Assembly (NCBI RefSeq): GCF_000374005.1
Contig: NZ_KB893146.1
Location: 1 to 64,000 of the forward strand
DNA: 64,000 nucleotides
Source: Kiloniella laminariae DSM 19542
Lineage (GTDB): Bacteria; Pseudomonadota; Alphaproteobacteria; Kiloniellales; Kiloniellaceae
Direction: 5' to 3'
Part shown: positions 6,661 to 53,201 of the stretch, piece after piece
Layout of the letters: the number at the start of each line of letters is the position of its first letter
How positions within the stretch are numbered: the first letter of the stretch is position 1
The notes under the pieces: generated by a model
Databases searched by the model: none
The model's input: the letters and a program-made list of their open reading frames with translations, nothing else
Told to the model about the DNA's origin: nothing
Translations under genes and position numbers: made by a program

Positions 6661-7092
6661 ATGAACTTAAATTTTCAGGAAAAACAAATACTGTCCTGCT
6701 GTATATTTGAAACATTTGAATGCGCAGGTGAGTTCCTGCATCGGATCGAGATGACGGGGAATATGGGAAGGGTAGAGCGCATTCCGCTTTATCAGCAAAC
6801 TCTGGCTTTGAATAAGTCGAAGAATTATTTTTGTATTCTTGATAACAGAAGAGGGTACGAAAACACTCTAACCCTTGATGATATGCGTTATTTCGACGAT
6901 ATGCTGGTTGAGGCCGGGATTGAGTTATTTTATGGGGCGACGGTTACTCTGGATGATGAGTACAAAAAGATAACCACACTGGCCAATGTTAACGTTGAAG
7001 TATCAGAGCTGGCCGGGGAACTGTTCGCGACCAGCAGTTACCAGGAAGCAGAAGATTTTATCTTTGCGCATATGCAGAAGGCATATCCATAG
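6661..7092 (+). CDS. Hypothetical protein, 143 residues
   Basis: I do not recognise a family with confidence. The protein is soluble, has no signal peptide or membrane segment, and looks like a compact alpha/beta fold: a strand-rich first half with a CC pair near residue 13, an LTLDDMRYFDDML helix in the middle and an acidic C-terminal helix. The size and pattern recall SpoIIAA/STAS-like single-domain proteins, which is only an impression. It follows the OsmC-YcaO gene by 170 bases on the same strand, so the two may be co-transcribed. ATG 6661 is the only reasonable start; AAGG lies about 10 bases upstream. Confidence 0.6.
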   Translation: MNLNFQEKQILSCCIFETFECAGEFLHRIEMTGNMGRVERIPLYQQTLALNKSKNYFCILDNRRGYENTLTLDDMRYFDDMLVEAGIELFYGATVTLDDEYKKITTLANVNVEVSELAGELFATSSYQEAEDFIFAHMQKAYP

Positions 7093-37949: not shown

Positions 37950-40112
37950 TCAGAGGCCTTTGCGCCAGACTGAAACTTCAGACAGGCTGTGCTGGAATTT
38001 GCGTCGGGTTTCTCTGATGACAAAAGGTACATCACTTGGTGGGCAAACCATTTCAAATTCGGGGGTCAGGGCATCGCGCAGGCCTTCAAGAGTTGTGTAG
38101 CTCTCTCCTGTATTTGCCTTGAAACCACCAAGCCAGTTTTCCCGCTGGGTGAATTCTTCCAGCCAGGTATAGGGGGAGGCCAGAACCAGCAACCCGCCGG
38201 GACGTATGCGCTGTTTGATGGTCTTGAGAAATTGGCGCGGATCATAAAGTCGATCAATCAGGTTCCCGGCAAAAACAAGATCATAATTTGTATATTTTTC
38301 AGCGAGATTGCAGGCGTCGCCCTGCATGAAGCTGATCCGATCTTTGATATTTTCATAGTTATCAAAATCCGAGAGTTTTATTTCTTTGTAGCTGACCAGC
38401 TCCCCTTCGTCCTGGATCGTATAGCGCTGTGTCCCTTTTTGCTGCAGGCTGGTCGGAGCCTGTATCAGCCGGGCAGAAAAATCTATGGCATCGACATGAT
38501 CAAAAACCCGGGCCAGCTCGAAAGATGCCCGCCCTGTCGCACAGCCCAGGTCCAGTGCGCGTTCTGTCCGGCCTTTCCCCGCATGCTCAAGGCAAATTCT
38601 GGCGCAGGCAACCGGGAAGTTCGGCACAGAAAAGAACTCTTCGCCATAGTGAAACTCGATATACTGAGCCACAATGTCATCGGTTTCGTACATATTGACC
38701 TCATTTGCTGGAAGTTCATCTGCTTCAACGTAGCGGAAGCCGGAATGCTGGAAGAAATGTCGCCGAAAGGCATAACGGGAATCCCTGATCGCATAGTTCC
38801 CGGTAGAAATCCAGCAACCGCCTTTGAAGATGTTATGCTTGCCGTCAAAGGTCGGGGTGGAGAAATCATCATAGACGGGATGCACCTTGAAGCCCTCGAA
38901 ACCGTCGATGGGGGTTTCTGTCCATTGCCAGGCATTGCCGATGAGATCAAAAAATCCCCCGGTAAAACTATGACGGTTGACGGGGCAGGATGACATTTCC
39001 CGTTCAAGGTTGATGTTGCCCGGAGCCTGTTTCCAATCAGGCTGGTCTTCGGGGACAAGAGCGCGCAACCTGTACCATTCAGCCTCAGTTGGCAGCCGGA
39101 TCGATTTTCCAGTTTTGATCGATTTCCAGTTGCAGAAAGCCTTGGCTTCAAGGTAGTTCACATCTACTGGCCAGTCCCAGGGCATATCAATAAGGGAAAG
39201 CATAGAGCGATAGCGATATCCCTCAGTCTGCTCTACCCAAAAGACCGGATGTTTTGCCTTGCGATATGAAGCCCACCTCCAGCCCTCTGCCATCCAGTAT
39301 CTTTCATTCTGATATCCGCCGTCGGTGACAAAATCGAGAAACTCCCGGTTTGAAACGAGGAATTTACTGGCTTTGAAACCGGAGACATCAATACGTTTCT
39401 GCCCGTATTCATTGTCCCAGCCATAGAGATGATTGTCTTCTCCCTTGCCCAGAGTAACCGCAGCCGCTGTAACCGGGAGAAGTTCGTTCTGTGGAGCGAT
39501 ACCGCTTTGCAGGCAAATATTGCTCCAGATCCGGTGGGCCTGCAGTTTTTCCAGAGGAAGTTCCCGAATGAGAACCGAGGTGGTTTCAAGATGAATCCGC
39601 TCGTGTTCAATCCCCATCATAATGATCCAGAGCGGATCGTCCTGGGTAAGGGGCAAGCTCAGATCGCAAGTGCGAATGAAGTGGTCGACCAGCTTCCGGG
39701 TCTTGTCGCGATAGTCTTTGACCCTGGCGGGTGTCGGCCAGACATAACTGGTGTCATTGAGATCATCCCAGGACATTTCGTCGACCCCGATAGCAAGGCT
39801 CGATTCAATCTGTTCATCAATACGCGTGTCGATCAGTTTGGCGACATTAAGCTTGTTAATAAAAAAGACCGCGGTGTGTCCGTAGTAGAAAATCAGGGGG
39901 TGTCGCAGGGGATTGGCCCGGCGATAGAAGGCCTCGTCGTCCACCAGACATTCGAAAATTGACTCATAAAGCGAAAAGGTTTTGTGAAAATAGCTGAGGA
40001 TCTCCTGGCGCTTTTCCTCGGCTTCACCCTGATCGAGAATAATGGTGCGGGTGACAAGAAGCTCCTGATCAGAAAACTTAACATGCTGATCCGAGGGTGT
40101 TTTTAATGGCAT
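37950..40112 (-). CDS. ovoA: Ovothiol biosynthesis enzyme OvoA (sulfoxide synthase plus methyltransferase)
   Basis: A 720-residue bifunctional enzyme. Residues 40-180 are a DinB-like domain carrying the iron ligands H170-x3-H174-x-E176, with H79 a likely third histidine. The formylglycine-generating-enzyme-like sulfoxide synthase domain follows to about residue 450 (GFKASKFLVSNREFLDF, IRLPTEAEWYRL, GNAWQWTETPIDGF). The C-terminal SAM methyltransferase begins with TDDIVAQYIEFHYGEEF and contains ALDLGCATGRASFELAR. OvoA joins cysteine to C5 of histidine with oxygen and later N-methylates the mercaptohistidine. The carbon-sulfur lyase OvoB is not obviously encoded beside it. Transcribed divergently from the PLP enzyme at 40400. 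Confidence 0.95.
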   Translation of the reverse strand: MPLKTPSDQHVKFSDQELLVTRTIILDQGEAEEKRQEILSYFHKTFSLYESIFECLVDDEAFYRRANPLRHPLIFYYGHTAVFFINKLNVAKLIDTRIDEQIESSLAIGVDEMSWDDLNDTSYVWPTPARVKDYRDKTRKLVDHFIRTCDLSLPLTQDDPLWIIMMGIEHERIHLETTSVLIRELPLEKLQAHRIWSNICLQSGIAPQNELLPVTAAAVTLGKGEDNHLYGWDNEYGQKRIDVSGFKASKFLVSNREFLDFVTDGGYQNERYWMAEGWRWASYRKAKHPVFWVEQTEGYRYRSMLSLIDMPWDWPVDVNYLEAKAFCNWKSIKTGKSIRLPTEAEWYRLRALVPEDQPDWKQAPGNINLEREMSSCPVNRHSFTGGFFDLIGNAWQWTETPIDGFEGFKVHPVYDDFSTPTFDGKHNIFKGGCWISTGNYAIRDSRYAFRRHFFQHSGFRYVEADELPANEVNMYETDDIVAQYIEFHYGEEFFSVPNFPVACARICLEHAGKGRTERALDLGCATGRASFELARVFDHVDAIDFSARLIQAPTSLQQKGTQRYTIQDEGELVSYKEIKLSDFDNYENIKDRISFMQGDACNLAEKYTNYDLVFAGNLIDRLYDPRQFLKTIKQRIRPGGLLVLASPYTWLEEFTQRENWLGGFKANTGESYTTLEGLRDALTPEFEMVCPPSDVPFVIRETRRKFQHSLSEVSVWRKGL

Positions 40113-41341: not shown

Positions 41342-41446
41342 CTGCCTGGGCAGAAGCTTAAGCTGTCGTCCGGCGGAATTAAGCCTTTTGTAATTCGACT
41401 GGGCTATGCTCAAGACTGTTCCGACACAAGAACTTCCCTAGGGTTG

Positions 41447-42370
41447 ATGGGGATACACGATTTGGAAACTGGTCTTGGTTCAATAGCTGGTCGATTGAGA
41501 AGCCTGCTGTGCTTTATCCGAAGTGGCAGGGCTGGGGTCTGCTTTTTCTGTTTGATTCTCTTGTTTGATGACAGGGTCTCGCTTGGGCAGGCATCTGCTG
41601 AGCCTGCGGAAAGTCCTCTGAACAAACCGGTTCGTGTTTGTGCTGACGAACTGGGCTTTCCTCCCTTTACCTATCTTGAAAAAGAAGTTCCCGGTAATTC
41701 TCGTAGAGAATTGACCGGAGCAAGTTACGAGCTGATTTTACTCGTTTTTTCAGAAGCTGGTATTCCGGCGAAGGTGGAGCTGGCACCCTGGAAACGATGT
41801 CTGGCAAGTGTGGCGCGCTTTTCGGTTGAAGGTGATTTTGAAATTTTTCTTGATGGGTCCAGCAGCCGCGAAAGAGAGGGGCTCTATTTGCGGACTCAAC
41901 CAGTTTATCTGGCAACCCGGGCACTTTATTATTCCAAAAAAAATACCCCCCGCGCGACGAAAATACCCGAGCTGACGGCTTTGAACCACTATCGTCTTTG
42001 TGGGATCGCAGGTTATAATCTTCAGTGGTTGAAATTGTACAGTGTGACCCAAAAGGTCGATCAGACGACCTATTCCTATGATCATGCATTTCATAAGCTG
42101 GACGAAGGCAGATGTGATTTTGTTATCGGTTATAAAGAGCAGGTTGATGGTCTGATAAAAGAAGGGGATCTGATCCTGCCCAATGAGATCGAGGTCTTGA
42201 AAAATGTGATTTTCCCGACAGAAACATTCTATCTATGGATTTCTCGCAAGTCTGACCGGGCTGAGTCCTTGCTTCAAATTGTAAACGATGGCATTGCCAA
42301 ACTGCAGGCGGATGGACGTTACGAAGATATCTTCCTGCGCTATGTAAAAGATGAACTGCTTGTGCGCTAG
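41447..42370 (+). CDS. Orphan solute-binding protein (SBP_bac_3 type)
   Basis: About 307 residues. A hydrophobic segment AGVCFFCLILLF near residues 29-40 follows an unusually long N-terminal part, so either the signal peptide is long or translation starts later. The mature part has VRVCADELGFPPFTYLE, ASYELILLVFSEAGI, FEIFLDGSSSRERE and, at the end, LQADGRYEDIFLRYV, matching periplasmic family 3 binding proteins. No permease or ATPase genes adjoin. Third orphan of this type in the window; ligand unknown. Confidence 0.78.
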   Translation: MGIHDLETGLGSIAGRLRSLLCFIRSGRAGVCFFCLILLFDDRVSLGQASAEPAESPLNKPVRVCADELGFPPFTYLEKEVPGNSRRELTGASYELILLVFSEAGIPAKVELAPWKRCLASVARFSVEGDFEIFLDGSSSREREGLYLRTQPVYLATRALYYSKKNTPRATKIPELTALNHYRLCGIAGYNLQWLKLYSVTQKVDQTTYSYDHAFHKLDEGRCDFVIGYKEQVDGLIKEGDLILPNEIEVLKNVIFPTETFYLWISRKSDRAESLLQIVNDGIAKLQADGRYEDIFLRYVKDELLVR

Positions 42371-42984: not shown

Positions 42985-43071
42985 ACAAAACTGTGATGAA
43001 CACACTTTATCTGTGGCATTTGAAACCGGACCGCTGGATACAGTTGTTAACAAGACGGAAGGTTGATCAAG

Positions 43072-43704
43072 ATGGCTCGGCCACGTGAGTTTGATATCGA
43101 GGTTGCAGTAGAACAGGCACTTCAGGTTTTTTGGTCCAGGGGCTATGAAGGTGCGGGCCTGATTGAGCTTCTTGAGGCAATGCAAATCGCGCGGAGTAGT
43201 CTTTACAAAACCTTTGGCGACAAGCGGTCGCTCTTTCTGGCGGCGTTAACGCATTATGACATAACGCGGGTTACAGCCGCAGTTTCCCTGTTGCGAGATG
43301 CTTTAATTCCCGATGGGGAGCATAGAATTGCCAATTTGTTAATGTCTATCGCCGAGGCCATTGAGAAGCAGGGGGACCGACGGGGCTGTTTTCTTTGCAA
43401 CACGGCTGTAGATCAGGCACCGCATGATAAAGAGATTGCCGAGCAGGTCCGCCGAATGATGAGCCGAATGGAAGAGGGATTTTTCTGTGCTCTCGTAGCG
43501 TCAAACCTCAAGCGAACCCTTGATCTTAATGGCGAGGGGGAGGCAAGGTTGCTAAAAACGGCCCGGGTACTGAATACGGTCTATAACGGATTGAGGGTGA
43601 TGGCCAAGGCTGGTTATTCTGCTGGAGAAATCCGAACTGTAATTCAAGCTCAACTGCACCAAAATGGCCTGGAAAATATGGGGCTTGTCACCAAGAAGAT
43701 CTGA
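43072..43704 (+). CDS. TetR/AcrR family transcriptional regulator
   Basis: A 210-residue repressor. N-terminal helix-turn-helix MARPREFDIEVAVEQALQVF followed by IARSSLYKTFGDKRSLFLAAL; the C-terminal ligand domain carries RGCFLCNTAVDQAPHDKEIA, usual in the subgroup controlling redox and detoxification genes, with two cysteines that might sense electrophiles. ATG 43072 has GGAAGG 9 bases upstream; TTG 43063 is an alternative. Probably regulates the divergent DM13 gene and itself. Confidence 0.92.
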   Translation: MARPREFDIEVAVEQALQVFWSRGYEGAGLIELLEAMQIARSSLYKTFGDKRSLFLAALTHYDITRVTAAVSLLRDALIPDGEHRIANLLMSIAEAIEKQGDRRGCFLCNTAVDQAPHDKEIAEQVRRMMSRMEEGFFCALVASNLKRTLDLNGEGEARLLKTARVLNTVYNGLRVMAKAGYSAGEIRTVIQAQLHQNGLENMGLVTKKI

Positions 43705-43974: not shown

Positions 43975-45747
43975 ATGCTCGCCGTAAATCAAAAAGATGC
44001 GGAACAGGATGAAGTTGGTAAAAGGTTATCCCGGCATGAAAGGGATAGTGCCGGTTACCGGGGCTTGAGCCGTTTTCACTTGCGGTGGCGTATATACCTT
44101 GCTTTTCTTTTCAGCATTGCTTTGTTTACCTTTGGCGGGGCACTGACCGTTTTCATTCTTGAGGATGAGCGGGCCATCCTTGAACAGACCCAAAATTATC
44201 AGGCAAGACGCCTGTCCGATCTCACAATCCTGTTCCGGCGACTTACTGATGCAAACAGTGCTCTTTCCGTCCTGCTGTCCGGCAACGACGAAGAAACAGC
44301 TGATGATCAGCTCTTCAAATCTGCCTTGCCTTATGTAAAAGAGTTAAAAAGTATCCGGTTTCTGCTCGAAGAAATCCGGTCAGATCCTGCACTGGTCGAG
44401 GCGGAAGAGCGATATCTGCTTAATGTTATTGCCCGCCTCGAAAGTTATCAGCAGGTCATTTCCACTGCTGTGGAGGTCCCGGAAGGCACGCAACATGTCA
44501 AGCTGGCTGACATGCGTCATACAAGCGACGGGTTTCTCAGGATATCGGAAGCCTTTGGAGAATATGTCGATTACTACAGCGAACGGACCGATGGTGATAT
44601 GGGGGCCTTGCTGGAGCGTTATTCCTTCTATATCCCGTTATTTGTGACCTCTATGATCATCGGACTTTTTGTTCTGGGCGGTGTCGCCTGGGGGGTTTCT
44701 TCCTCTATCGTTAACGACCTGGCGCGTGTGACCCAGACGCTAGGTCTTCTGGCGCAGGGGCGAAACGTCAGCCAGTTGGAAGGGCTGGAACGGAAAGATG
44801 AATTCGGGGATATCGCCCGCGCGGCTGATCTGTTTCGCCATAATCTCAAGCGTCTTGATGATCTTCGCCATCTACAGAAAAACGAGAGCGCCCTGAAGGA
44901 TCGTATAAAAGAGCTGGGGGATGCTGAAGGGCGGTTGGAGAGCCAGGTTGAGTTCCTGCAGGGCTTTGCCCAGAACCTTGATGATGCCCGGCACAAGGCA
45001 GAAGCAGCGGTGATGTCGAAAAACCAGTTTCTTGCCAATATAAGCTACGAACTGAGGGCTCCCCTTAACAATGTCATCGGTTTTTCGCAAATCATGGCAC
45101 AGGAGATGTTTGGCCCAATCCAGGACCCGCGCTACAAGGACTATGCAATTCTGATTGAGAAAAGCGGCACAGATTTGTTGCAGCTTGTGGATGATATCCT
45201 TGATTTGGCGGATCTTGAGGCCGGGAAGATCAAGCTGGAAGAAGAGGCGCAGGATATCAGGGAGCTGTTTGACAGCTGCGAAAGGATGGCAAGCAGCCGT
45301 GCCAGAGAAGCCGGGGTTACGCTGTCGTTTGAGATTCTTCCCGAGGGATTACAACTCGTTTGTGATTTCCGCGTTATGCAGCAGGCTTTGTTGAATCTCT
45401 TGTCCAATGCAATCAAGTTTTCTGAGCGAGGGGGACAGGTCCACCTGTGGGGAGGGTTGAATAACGTTGGTAATGTTTGCCTGTCGGTAAAAGATACGGG
45501 CCGTGGGATGGACCCGGTTGTCGCGCAGCAAGCCCTGGAACCTTATGGACAGAGTTCAGTCGCTCTGGTGCGGGGGCAACGGGGCATCGGATTGGGACTG
45601 CCTCTGACATCGGGCTTTGTTGCAATGCACGGGGGGCGCGTGACAATCGATAGTGAAATAGGGAAGGGCACAATGGTTACCTGCCTGTTCCCAGCGGAAC
45701 GTACACAGTTACCAAAAGATAATCTACGAGTAGAGCAAGCCGAATAG
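43975..45747 (+). CDS. Sensor histidine kinase homologue with tyrosine in place of the H-box histidine
   Basis: A 590-residue membrane protein. Helices near residues 39-60 and 220-242 bracket a periplasmic helical region, then a HAMP-like segment (VTQTLGLLAQGRNVSQLEG), a coiled coil and a HisKA-type domain in which the H box reads NISYELRAPLNNVIGF: Tyr358 stands where the phosphorylated His should be. The ATPase domain is largely kept (NLLSNAIKFSERGG, DTGRGMD, QRGIGLGLPLTSG). The codon is TAC and the frame is open, so this is not simply a frameshift. It may be a pseudokinase that regulates a partner, or phosphorylate differently. No response regulator adjoins. Confidence 0.85.
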   Translation: MLAVNQKDAEQDEVGKRLSRHERDSAGYRGLSRFHLRWRIYLAFLFSIALFTFGGALTVFILEDERAILEQTQNYQARRLSDLTILFRRLTDANSALSVLLSGNDEETADDQLFKSALPYVKELKSIRFLLEEIRSDPALVEAEERYLLNVIARLESYQQVISTAVEVPEGTQHVKLADMRHTSDGFLRISEAFGEYVDYYSERTDGDMGALLERYSFYIPLFVTSMIIGLFVLGGVAWGVSSSIVNDLARVTQTLGLLAQGRNVSQLEGLERKDEFGDIARAADLFRHNLKRLDDLRHLQKNESALKDRIKELGDAEGRLESQVEFLQGFAQNLDDARHKAEAAVMSKNQFLANISYELRAPLNNVIGFSQIMAQEMFGPIQDPRYKDYAILIEKSGTDLLQLVDDILDLADLEAGKIKLEEEAQDIRELFDSCERMASSRAREAGVTLSFEILPEGLQLVCDFRVMQQALLNLLSNAIKFSERGGQVHLWGGLNNVGNVCLSVKDTGRGMDPVVAQQALEPYGQSSVALVRGQRGIGLGLPLTSGFVAMHGGRVTIDSEIGKGTMVTCLFPAERTQLPKDNLRVEQAE

Positions 45748-45869
45748 ACCGTTTTTCACCATGATCAGGGCTATTATCTAACCTGGCCTTGATGCCTTTC
45801 CTTCTTCAACGTAGTTTTGCCAGCGAACCGGATTCTGGTCAGCTTTATTATACGTTGGAAGGTAGTGTT

Positions 45870-46781
45870 ATGTCGGCACCACGTCGGGCATTTATGTTTT
45901 TGGTGATTGCCCAGCTGCTATGGGCGGGAAACTTTATCGTTGGCCGGGCTTTTGCTGCTGATATTGCCCCCCTAACCCTGTCATTCTGGCGCTGGACGGT
46001 TGCTTTTGTCTGTCTGTTGCCCTTTGCCGGGCCAGCTCTGATCAGAGAGTGGCCGCTCTATCGGCCGGTAATCTGGAAAATGATCCTGCTCGCCCTTTTG
46101 AGTGTGACCAGCTTTAATACCCTGTTGTATTTTGGCTTGCAGACAACTGGTGCAACCAATGCAGCACTGCTGAATTCAATGATACCGGTGATTATTATTA
46201 CCCTGTCATTTCTCTGTTATGGGGAACGGATTCGCCTGATCCAGATTCTCGGAATCACGGTTTCTTTTTGTGGTGTTCTGGTGCTGATTACCCGGGGAGA
46301 TTTTGAAAACCTGCTGGGCCTTACACTGAATAGCGGGGATTTCCTGGTATTGGGGGCCGTGGTCTCCTGGGCTTTCTATTCTCTCTGGCTGCGCTGGAAA
46401 CCGGAAGGAGTGTCGCTTTTCTCTTTTGTGCTGCTGAGCATCGGGATCGGGGATTCTGTTCTTGGGCTGATCTACTTTTCCGGCGTGTTTGAAGCAGCGC
46501 CGCTTGAGTTGACCCTCAACAATATTCTTGCCGTTTTTTATGCCAGTGTACCGGTGTCTATTCTTGCCTTTACCTGCTGGAACATTGGCGTTCGGCAGGT
46601 TGGAGCAAGTCTTGCCGGGCAGTTTATTCATCTGTTGCCGGTTTTTGCATCTGTTATGGCAATTGTCCTGTTGGGAGAAACTCCCGAATTCTATCATGGT
46701 GCAGGGGCGATTCTGATTGGTCTCGGCGTCTGGTTTTCGGTGCGTAAAAAGCGCCGCGCCATTGAGGTTGAGCCTGTTTGA
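45870..46781 (+). CDS. EamA/DMT family transporter
   Basis: A 303-residue inner-membrane protein with ten hydrophobic helices in two EamA repeats (FLVIAQLLWAGNFIVGRAFA; then GDFLVLGAVVSWAFYSLWLR) and a basic C-terminal tail RKKRRAIE. The family exports amino acids, nucleobases, cysteine derivatives and other metabolites; the substrate here is unknown. ATG 45870 (GGAAGG 7 bases upstream) replaces the longer frame at 45789. A second member lies at 53850-54779. Confidence 0.92.
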   Translation: MSAPRRAFMFLVIAQLLWAGNFIVGRAFAADIAPLTLSFWRWTVAFVCLLPFAGPALIREWPLYRPVIWKMILLALLSVTSFNTLLYFGLQTTGATNAALLNSMIPVIIITLSFLCYGERIRLIQILGITVSFCGVLVLITRGDFENLLGLTLNSGDFLVLGAVVSWAFYSLWLRWKPEGVSLFSFVLLSIGIGDSVLGLIYFSGVFEAAPLELTLNNILAVFYASVPVSILAFTCWNIGVRQVGASLAGQFIHLLPVFASVMAIVLLGETPEFYHGAGAILIGLGVWFSVRKKRRAIEVEPV

Positions 46782-50159: not shown

Positions 50160-53100
50160 ATGGCACAAGACACACTCCACCTCTACAGTACAACGGAAGC
50201 CGAATTTCTGTTTCAGGAACTCTATGGACATGTCGGTCGGGCGACGGCCTTGCCGAGCGAGAGGGATCAGAATTTTCGACTGGTTGTTGAGGGCGGGGGT
50301 GCCTTTGTTCTGAAGCTCTATGCGCCTGAGACAGACAGGGTCTGGCTGGAAGCCCAGGATGCCCTGCTTCAGGAACTGGCACAAAGAGATGCAGACCTCC
50401 CTCTGCCGCGAGCTGTGCCCAATAAAAAGAACATGATAACTGACGAGGTTGTCGACCCGCAGGGCAAATCCCGGCCGATCCGTTTGCTGAGCTGGATGGA
50501 AGGAGATGTCTGGAGCAAGGTGGCACAGAAACAGGATCTGGATTACTCCCAGATTGGGCGGCTGATGGGACGGATGGACAAGGCGCTTAAATCTTTCAGT
50601 CATGAAGGAGCAAAGCGGACGTTTTTATGGGATATAGCCCAGGCGACAACCCATCGTGCCTTCCTTCATCTGATAGAGGATGAAAAGATCAGATCGATTG
50701 TGATGGCCATTGTGGACCGCTTTGAACAGAAAAATGCCTGGGCTCTTAATAAGCTGCCATCCCAGGTCATCCATAATGATGCCAATGATTATAACATCCT
50801 GGTGGACAGCCAGGGGCAGATCAGTGGCTTGATCGATTTTGGCGATTTTATCGAAAGTTACCGGGTTTGTGACCTCGCTGTTGCCTGTGCATATGCCATG
50901 CTGGGGCAAAGAGATCCGGTTGGACGGGCTTGTGAGGTCGTGGCTGGCTATCATGCGACCAATCCCCTGACAGCCGCAGAAATCGCGCTGGTTTATGATC
51001 TTGCCCAGGTCAGGCTTGCTGAATCAACCTGTATGGCGGCCCAGCAATATGCCGCCAATCCGGAAAATGACTATCTTCTGATCAGCCAGAAAGATGTGCG
51101 GGAGCTTTTGCTCCGGATGGAAAAAATCAATCGGGATGTGGTTCATTATCGCTTTAGGGATGTCTGTGGTCTGGAAGCCTGTCCGGGATCGCGCAAGCTG
51201 GTTCAATGGCTTTCGGCCAATGCGGACCGGATCGGGCCGATTTGTGATCCGGTGCTTTCTGCGGACAACGTTCTTGTTCTGGATCTCTCGACCTTGTCTG
51301 TTGATGAAGAAGGTATCACCCTTGATGCGGAGGCGGCCACCAGTCTGATCTTCTCGATAATGGACGACGCCGGAGCCGAAGTGGGCATTGGCAACTATCT
51401 GGAGGACCGCAATGTCTACAAGGGTGACTTTTTTGAAACAGTTGATCCGGAAGAACGCCGGACGGTCCACTTGGGAATTGATCTGTTCTTGCCAGCCTAT
51501 GCGCCGCTTTATGCTCCGCTTGATGGCAAGGTCCGGGTGCATAACGACAACACCCGGGACTATGACTATGGTCCGGTGTTAATCCTTGAGCATGAGATGG
51601 ACGAAGGGCAGGTTTTCTATACCAAGTATGGCCATCTGAGCCGTACATCTCTTGCTCTCTGGGAGGATGGCAAGGCGTTCAAAAAGGGCGAACTGATCGG
51701 GTATGTCGGCCCCTATCCGGAAAATGGGAACTGGGCACCGCATGTGCACTTTCAATTGCTGCTTGATCTGATGGGGATGGAAAATGATGTCTGCGGGGTG
51801 GCTGCACGCAGCGAACGCAATGTCTGGGCATCTGTCTGCCCAAGCCCGAACCTGATCCTGGGGATGCAGATCAAATGCGAGGGGACCACAGTCCGCTCGG
51901 CAAAGGATATTCGCTCTGAACGGGCGCGCCATCTTGGACCAAATCTGAGTCTTTCCTATAGTGCTCCCTTGAAGATTGTCAGGGGAGAGGCGCAGTATCT
52001 TTATAGCGAGAGCGGAGATAGCTATCTCGATATGGTCAACAATGTCTGTCATGTCGGGCATTGTCATCCACGGGTGGTCAAGGCCGCGACAGAGCAGCTG
52101 CCTGTGCTCAATACCAATACCCGCTATTTGCATGATAATATTGTCAACTATGCGCGAGAGCTGCTTTCGACTTTTCCGGAGCCTCTGGAAGTCTGTTTCT
52201 TTGTCAATTCAGGCAGCGAGGCCAATGATCTCGCCCTGCGACTGGCGCAGAACTATACCGGTTGCCGGGAAATGCTGGTGGTTGATCATGCCTATCATGG
52301 CAACCTGACGTCCCTTATTGATCTGAGCCCCTACAAGTTTAATCGCAAGGGCGGCAGGGGCCGGCCTGAACATGTGCGTGTCTGCCCGATGCCGGATGGC
52401 TATCGTGGTCCGGTTAAAGCGGATGACCCGGCGTGTGGGAGCAAATATGCCGACCTGGCGATCCAGGAACTTCGGGCTTTGGAACAGGCTGGAGGAAAAC
52501 CCTGTGCCTTTATCGCGGAATCGCTGCTGGGCTGTGGCGGGCAGATCGTTTTGCCGCAAGGATATCTGCCGAAGGTTTATGACGCGGTACGGGCTTCGGG
52601 GGGACTCTGTATTGCTGATGAAGTCCAGGTCGGCTTTGGCCGTATTGGCGAGCATATGTGGGGCTTTGAACAGCAGGGGGTGGTGCCGGATATTGTGACC
52701 CTTGGCAAACCGATTGCCAATGGTCATCCCATGGGGGCTGTGGTGACAACCCGGGCAGTTGCCGATGCTTTTATGACTGGAATGGAGTACTTCAATACCT
52801 TTGGCGGTAATCCGGTATCCTGTGCCATTGGTCTTGAGGTCCTGCAGGTCGTCCGTGACGAGCGCCTCCAGAACAACGCCCGCCTGGTCGGGGCCCGGAT
52901 GATGCAAGGGCTCAAGAGTATGGTCGCAGATCATCCGCTTATTGGCGAGGTCAGAGGGATGGGTCTGTTTATCGGGGTGGAACTGGTCAGAGATCACGCC
53001 ACGCTGGAGCCTGCAACGCCTGAAGCTGGTAAGGTTGTCAACCTGATGAAAGAGCGTGGAATTTTGCTTTCGACAGATGGACCTCTGGATAACGTTGTGA

Positions 53101-53201
53101 AAATCAAGCCTCCGATTTGTTTCTCTGCTGAAGATGCAGAACGGTTCCTACGGGAGTTTGATGACTGCCTGGCACTGGTGGAGCAGGAAGAGATTAAGTA
53201 A
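50160..53201 (+). CDS. Three-domain protein: APH-type kinase, M23 peptidase-like, class III aminotransferase/phospho-lyase
   Basis: A 1013-residue cytoplasmic protein. Residues 1 to about 370 are an aminoglycoside-phosphotransferase/hydroxylysine-kinase-like domain with the catalytic HNDANDYNIL (His205, Asp207) and LIDFGDF. Residues about 420-560 form an M23 domain with complete zinc motif H437-x3-D441 and H528-x-H530. The C-terminal 430 residues are a class III PLP enzyme with Lys850 in TLGKPIANGHP and NSGSEANDLALRLA. Separately encoded animal homologues phosphorylate hydroxylysine and then eliminate phosphate from it or phosphoethanolamine. The fusion thus probably phosphorylates and then beta-eliminates an amino-alcohol; the M23 role is unclear. 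A divergent Lrp gene likely regulates it. Confidence 0.92.
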   Translation: MAQDTLHLYSTTEAEFLFQELYGHVGRATALPSERDQNFRLVVEGGGAFVLKLYAPETDRVWLEAQDALLQELAQRDADLPLPRAVPNKKNMITDEVVDPQGKSRPIRLLSWMEGDVWSKVAQKQDLDYSQIGRLMGRMDKALKSFSHEGAKRTFLWDIAQATTHRAFLHLIEDEKIRSIVMAIVDRFEQKNAWALNKLPSQVIHNDANDYNILVDSQGQISGLIDFGDFIESYRVCDLAVACAYAMLGQRDPVGRACEVVAGYHATNPLTAAEIALVYDLAQVRLAESTCMAAQQYAANPENDYLLISQKDVRELLLRMEKINRDVVHYRFRDVCGLEACPGSRKLVQWLSANADRIGPICDPVLSADNVLVLDLSTLSVDEEGITLDAEAATSLIFSIMDDAGAEVGIGNYLEDRNVYKGDFFETVDPEERRTVHLGIDLFLPAYAPLYAPLDGKVRVHNDNTRDYDYGPVLILEHEMDEGQVFYTKYGHLSRTSLALWEDGKAFKKGELIGYVGPYPENGNWAPHVHFQLLLDLMGMENDVCGVAARSERNVWASVCPSPNLILGMQIKCEGTTVRSAKDIRSERARHLGPNLSLSYSAPLKIVRGEAQYLYSESGDSYLDMVNNVCHVGHCHPRVVKAATEQLPVLNTNTRYLHDNIVNYARELLSTFPEPLEVCFFVNSGSEANDLALRLAQNYTGCREMLVVDHAYHGNLTSLIDLSPYKFNRKGGRGRPEHVRVCPMPDGYRGPVKADDPACGSKYADLAIQELRALEQAGGKPCAFIAESLLGCGGQIVLPQGYLPKVYDAVRASGGLCIADEVQVGFGRIGEHMWGFEQQGVVPDIVTLGKPIANGHPMGAVVTTRAVADAFMTGMEYFNTFGGNPVSCAIGLEVLQVVRDERLQNNARLVGARMMQGLKSMVADHPLIGEVRGMGLFIGVELVRDHATLEPATPEAGKVVNLMKERGILLSTDGPLDNVVKIKPPICFSAEDAERFLREFDDCLALVEQEEIK

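Follow-up and report, generated by a model that had tools for sequence, protein, structure and literature searches.

Introduction

The textbook example of a histidine kinase that became a sensor is the cell-cycle protein DivL, which made this transition by exchanging its H-box histidine for a tyrosine. The protein exhibits neither kinase nor phosphatase activity, binds ATP weakly and recognises phosphorylated DivK (DivK~P) via its docking face, and this binding was weakened in a T557N variant (PMC4211667). In HisKA proteins, an acidic residue at position H+1 is needed for kinase activity and a Thr or Asn at H+4 for phosphatase activity, and the same split between kinase and phosphatase residues is also found in CrdS, HK853 and others (PMC3510030). 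For PdhS2 of Agrobacterium, a relative of the class treated here, the H271A variant is described as kinase-minus and the T275A variant, affected at H+4, as phosphatase-minus (PMC7003649). A tyrosine in the H box, with the precedent of DivL, and pseudo-histidine-kinases as a kind are already known. Here we report on a sensor kinase-like protein with a Tyr H box, which is encoded in a stretch of 64,000 nucleotides from a genome of the marine alphaproteobacterium Kiloniella (the window) and for which we found no published report in the open-licence literature.

Gene and domain layout

The gene for the putative Tyr-H-box sensor pseudo-histidine-kinase (43975–45747, plus strand) is an intact open reading frame of 590 codons without any interruption or stop, as the preliminary description of the window had stated, and codes for 590 amino acids with a HisKA and a HATPase_c domain. 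Orthologues are present in the Kiloniella genomes G002 (89% identity) and G008 (65–67%, in two contig pieces). Two transmembrane segments are predicted by hydropathy at residues ~39–63 (44089–44163), where the structural model shows a long helix from residue 24 to 103, and at residues ~216–246 (44620–44712). They enclose a predicted periplasmic sensor (44164–44619), which is all-helical in the AlphaFold model with helices ending at residue 103, extending from 111 to 135 and from 142 to 167, and starting at 174 (pLDDT ~65–86). The HAMP-like linker behind it (44713–44844) is assigned from its position and sequence pattern, shows low model confidence and received no Pfam call; the stretch around residues 220–320 was matched by larger proteins in the homologue search. 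The HisKA (DHp) domain at residues 348–417 (45016–45225; PF00512, 52 bits, E 6e-14) and the HATPase_c (CA) domain at residues 467–575 (45373–45699; PF02518, 70 bits, E 2.7e-19) were both recognised above the Pfam cut-offs, and no PAS domain was found in the protein by the Pfam scan.

The AlphaFold2 model, calculated from an alignment of 34 rows, reached a mean pLDDT of 76 and a pTM of 0.46, with a mostly confident DHp-CA part (80–97, except for the ATP-lid region) and an all-helical sensor of moderate confidence. The closest solved structure to the modelled DHp-CA part was that of DivL (4q20; Z 23.7 over 225 residues, rmsd 4.0), and entries of HK853 followed at Z values of about 22. The fold search with the full model covered mainly DHp-CA, and it established no fold relative of the sensor. 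The model supports an intact kinase-like core, and the structural match does not discriminate between functions.

Residues lost and retained in the catalytic core

The TAC codon at 45046–45048 codes for Tyr358, which sits exactly within the H box (FLANISYELRAPLNN; NISYELRAPLN) at the position of the phospho-accepting His. In the orthologue from K. laminariae G21630-S1 (G002, loci L001 and L005; 89% identity), the H box reads HISYELRSPLN and the Tyr is encoded by TAT, a synonymous difference between two separately assembled genomes. Because the separately assembled orthologue from another species contains a Tyr encoded by a different codon, chance or a sequencing error is excluded, and a strain-specific mutation is ruled out as well. 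The preliminary description would have been given up if all orthologues carried His at this position, and the one from K. laminariae carries Tyr. Its proposal of a single base change holds as a codon distance, with the addition that the Tyr is common to two species and that its codon has since changed synonymously. The ratio of dN to dS between the window gene and the K. laminariae orthologue was 0.061 over the entire gene and 0.038 within the DHp domain, compared to 0.026 for the DivL gene of the same genome (all by the Nei-Gojobori method), which indicates that the protein is mostly under strong purifying selection. The third orthologue, from G008, is interrupted by an assembly gap: two contigs end inside the gene (L034 on C88 and L035 on C152), both in a sequence which we take to be Nextera adaptor. 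The split is an assembly break and the gene itself is not broken; the missing piece of about 120 codons, which would contain the H box, was absent from the entire G008 assembly when searched for.

We compared the protein with 55 His-bearing relatives, picked by their similarity to the query, which share 30 invariant positions in the DHp-CA core. It deviates at three of these, namely by Tyr instead of His at position 358, by Ala instead of Thr at 362 (GCT, 45058–45060), which is the H+4 position of the phosphatase residue, and by Tyr instead of the F-box Phe at 524 (45544–45546). The acceptor His and the H+4 Thr are present in all 55 relatives, as is the F-box Phe (55 of 55), and Tyr524 is common to all three orthologues. 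The K. laminariae protein contains a Ser (TCC) at position 362 and additionally a Glu instead of Asp410. As judged by alignment with the His relatives, the N box (N474..N478..K481; 45394–45417) and the G1 box (D507-T-G-R-G511; 45493–45507) are intact, and the GxGxG motif is retained in the G2 box (G537-I-G-L-G-L542; 45583–45600). The intact ATP-binding motifs mentioned in the preliminary description were thus recovered residue by residue, with N474, N478, K481, D507, G509, G511, G537, G539 and G541 all retained, including those in the G008 piece. Compared to an active HisKA protein, the acceptor His and the Thr or Asn at H+4 are absent and the N, G1 and G2 boxes are present. Since both the acceptor His and the H+4 Thr are lost, the protein is expected to show neither autokinase nor phosphatase activity, with a folded core that possibly binds ATP. 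The residue required for phosphatase activity has probably been lost. The earlier reading as a pseudokinase is strengthened by a Tyr that is conserved in two species under purifying selection and by the additional loss at H+4, which had been left unmentioned, as had the DivL of the same genome.

Proposed function and possible partners

We give an even chance to the reading that the gene codes for a membrane-bound pseudo-histidine-kinase, which would act as an independent functional analogue of DivL by docking a DivK-type response regulator non-covalently. In an ordinary sensor kinase of the PleC/PdhS-like type, Tyr358 would have replaced the phospho-accepting His and an Ala or Ser the phosphatase Thr at position 362, and the fold, the dimer helices, the docking helix for the response regulator and the ATP-binding boxes would have been retained. 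The periplasmic helical bundle is most likely the signal-sensing part. Phosphotransfer would play no part in the action of such a protein, which would bind a response regulator of the DivK type (PdhS family), probably in the phosphorylated form, and either sequester it or pass on its state; which regulator is bound and in which direction the signal runs are guesses.

On the docking face, R361 (R553 in DivL) is kept and F370 (Y562) is aromatic, and N365 (T557) corresponds to the Asn of DivJ. Because N365 matches the T557N exchange that weakened the interaction in DivL, the mode of DivK~P binding may differ in the window protein. Further docking-face positions are conserved in the relatives but changed here (A366N, E372Q, D393L, H400D and K413D), and a regulator other than DivK is therefore conceivable. 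The genomic context of this orphan gene offers no partner: in line with the earlier remark that no response regulator adjoins, the closest receiver domain of the contig belongs to a hybrid kinase at ~2.0–2.8 kb, at a distance of 42 kb, with the next at 156 kb. The former hybrid histidine kinase (~1233–2819 of the window; 814-aa frame) carries two receiver domains, and its gene is the nearest two-component gene by receiver-domain search. Elsewhere, the genome contains a divK-pleD-like gene pair and about 40 further HisKA-type kinase matches.

The retained ATP-binding motifs could equally suit trans-phosphorylation in a heterodimer, and heterodimerisation with a His-bearing kinase is the main rival explanation, which we regard as possible rather than probable. 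The protein would then either modulate a His-bearing paralogue, in keeping with the earlier suggestion of a pseudokinase that tunes a partner kinase, or its CA domain would phosphorylate the His of the partner in trans. This would agree with the ATP-binding residues being kept in three species, with the ~40 other HisKA-type kinases available as possible partners, and with the precedents of RocA-CovS and ChrS-HrrS, in which inactive subunits contact active kinases (PMC7028121, PMC9491836), although the ChrS-HrrS heterodimers were seen for the native proteins and not for the truncated pseudokinase (PMC9491836). However, no obvious partner emerges, since a search of the genome with the N-terminal part as query matched only the protein itself and no close paralogue sharing the sensor domain, and the CA domains differ in the orthologues (GGGFGL in that of K. 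laminariae, HDG in that of G008), which suggests relaxed catalysis.

Relation to DivL and origin of the tyrosine

Of 143 genomes of relatives, 76 contained matches to a DNA pattern for the Tyr H box (S-Y-E-L-R-x-P-[LF]), as a rule a single one, and the reversed pattern used as a control gave three matches. The encoded proteins were scored against two DHp-CA profiles, DivL-type and His-type, in which positions H and H+4 were masked; the scoring covered the fetched loci, and the DivL identity of the remaining pattern matches is presumed. All DivL-like Tyr proteins favoured the DivL profile by 31 to 162 bits, and newly fetched DivL-like sequences from the whole class, which were outside the training set, favoured it by at least 36 bits. 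The exceptions preferring the His profile were the window protein and its orthologue (about −78), a kinase of 706 amino acids from G033 and G039 (−123), and a His-to-Leu kinase from G008 (−92). The window protein scored 278 bits on the His-relative (PleC/PdhS-like) profile vs. 200 bits on the DivL profile, a difference of 79 bits. This higher score and the motif GFS...FGP..DPRY.DYA..I..SG..LL point to a DHp domain of the PdhS type. A separate DivL gene is located at G000:C1:342207 in the same genome (+155 bits for the DivL profile), and a separate DivL-type match was found in every Kiloniella genome. Because the profiles separate them, we regard the common Tyr-H-box protein as DivL and the window protein as an additional one. 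The presence of a separate DivL, together with the architecture and the profile scores, rules out that the latter is DivL itself.

The 706-aa kinase of G033 (C109, L122) and G039 (C536, L124) is not a DivL protein and represents an independent Tyr-H-box case (NISYELRTPLN); a common origin with the window protein was rejected by an AU test (p 0.008). The His-to-Leu protein of G008 (L077 on C84, minus strand, match at 6726–7067) is a kinase of 476 amino acids with the H box NMSLELRSPLN and a Ser instead of Thr at H+4, and is possibly a second recent pseudokinase. Its sister in the genome of the window (L107, G000:C2:411088) contains both the His and the Thr.

The window protein is on a long branch in both trees calculated. 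In the 103-row tree, it is united with His kinases by a starred branch (98). In the 49-row tree, DivL forms a 100/100 clade excluding the window protein, which, at moderate support values (95/71, 90/87), falls close to L028, L070 and L093, all of them His kinases. An independent His-to-Tyr change in this protein is most likely, favoured by these sequence comparisons and not proved.

We consider it rather improbable that the protein is a divergent DivL paralogue, which would have inherited its Tyr from a common origin and swapped the PAS domains for a transmembrane sensor. This explanation would account for the identical residue and for DivL being the top structural match of the model, and the AU test did not reject a joint clade of the window protein and DivL (p 0.28). 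It is at odds with the DivL clade (100/100) that leaves the window protein out, with the 98% starred branch grouping it with the His kinases, and with the lead of the His profile by 79 bits, when every DivL-like protein scored at least 31 bits in the opposite direction. Moreover, the DHp motif (RY..YA..I..SG..LL) is unlike that of DivL (RQ..Y...I..SS..L), and a separate DivL is present in the same genome.

The comparison with DivL also bears on the earlier suggestion of a kinase with a different acceptor, in which Tyr358 itself or a residue elsewhere would be phosphorylated. The CA motifs are intact and Tyr is chemically possible as an acceptor, but DivL with the same substitution was without autokinase activity in vitro (PMC4211667), the F-box Phe is changed too, and the exchange at H+4 breaks the E/DxxT motif. 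The suggestion gained no support from our data, and we regard such a kinase as very unlikely.

Distribution and gene neighbourhood

The Tyr-H-box gene is present in three of nine Kiloniella genomes. Upstream of it lies a gene for a TetR-type regulator (43063–43704, plus strand; Pfam, synteny), which is kept with or without the kinase gene, and downstream on the same strand follows a gene for an EamA (DMT) transporter (45789–46781; Pfam, synteny), with a distance of 41 bp to its called start. The order of genes for a PLP enzyme, a DM13 protein, the TetR regulator, the kinase, the EamA transporter and a radical SAM protein is shared by the window with K. laminariae and G008, in the latter across two contigs. 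In five other Kiloniella species, the same genes are found without the kinase, and the TetR gene directly adjoins that for EamA. Either one lineage acquired the kinase gene or the other lost it.

Marginal and linker matches aside, the N-terminal sensor was confined to the three Kiloniella genomes with this gene: a search of 61 genomes of the order gave nothing except matches to the HAMP/linker region, and a class-wide search of 385 genomes gave one marginal match (E 8e-5). That the gene is an ordinary kinase being lost, or is affected by errors, hardly deserves credit, as its presence in only three of nine genomes and its long branch in the trees are opposed by full-length frames in two species, a dN/dS of 0.06, a Tyr retained despite a synonymous codon change, complete ATP boxes in three species, and a G008 split that occurred at adaptor sequence.

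Further genes were observed in the window. An SBP_bac_3-type gene (41444–42370) is conserved in its location in K. laminariae, but none was found at the corresponding location in G008 or in the five Kiloniella species that lack the kinase. The gene at 37950–40112 (minus strand) codes for a DinB_2, FGE-sulfatase and methyltransferase fusion similar to ergothioneine/ovothiol synthases (EgtB/OvoA type), and an open reading frame for 1013 amino acids at 50160–53201 looks by eye like a fusion of a phosphotransferase, a peptidase-like part and a class III aminotransferase.

Comparison with known systems

Perhaps, although we put this forward tentatively, the window protein represents a second, independently evolved class of Tyr-H-box pseudokinases, a transmembrane receptor through which an extracytoplasmic signal would reach the DivK-CtrA network by binding of a DivK-type regulator without phosphotransfer, beside the classical DivL of the same cell. 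If true, the change from His to Tyr would be a repeatable evolutionary route, also taken by the 706-aa kinase of G033 and G039, rather than a one-off of DivL. An independent case, with another sensor and without the phosphatase residue, would demonstrate the repeated origin of pseudo-histidine-kinases in Alphaproteobacteria. Such a case could also be used to examine if there is a preference for Tyr at the H-box position or if Tyr is just one of many inactive choices.

Among the described systems, DivL of Caulobacter crescentus (PDB 4q20) is alike in the Tyr replacing the H-box His and in the HisKA and HATPase fold with its boxes retained, and from this likeness the window protein would also be expected to lack autokinase activity. 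DivL differs by its PAS domains and by the Thr kept at H+4, compared to the two transmembrane segments, the helical periplasmic sensor, the Ala or Ser at H+4 and the PleC/PdhS-like DHp of the window protein. The alphaproteobacterial sensor kinases of the PleC/DivJ/PdhS type belong to the same DHp-CA sequence class; unlike the window protein, all 55 relatives compared have kept both the His and the H+4 Thr. The 706-aa kinase, from the same order, likewise combines a Tyr H box with membership in the PleC/PdhS-like group outside DivL, but differs in its sensor, its retained H+4 Thr and its position in the tree. RocA of Streptococcus pyogenes, which acts on CovS, and the inactive ChrS of Corynebacterium are histidine kinase-like proteins that work through an active kinase; however, they come from lineages unrelated to the window protein, RocA has a dispensable His at its putative site, and the ChrS variant is a laboratory frameshift.
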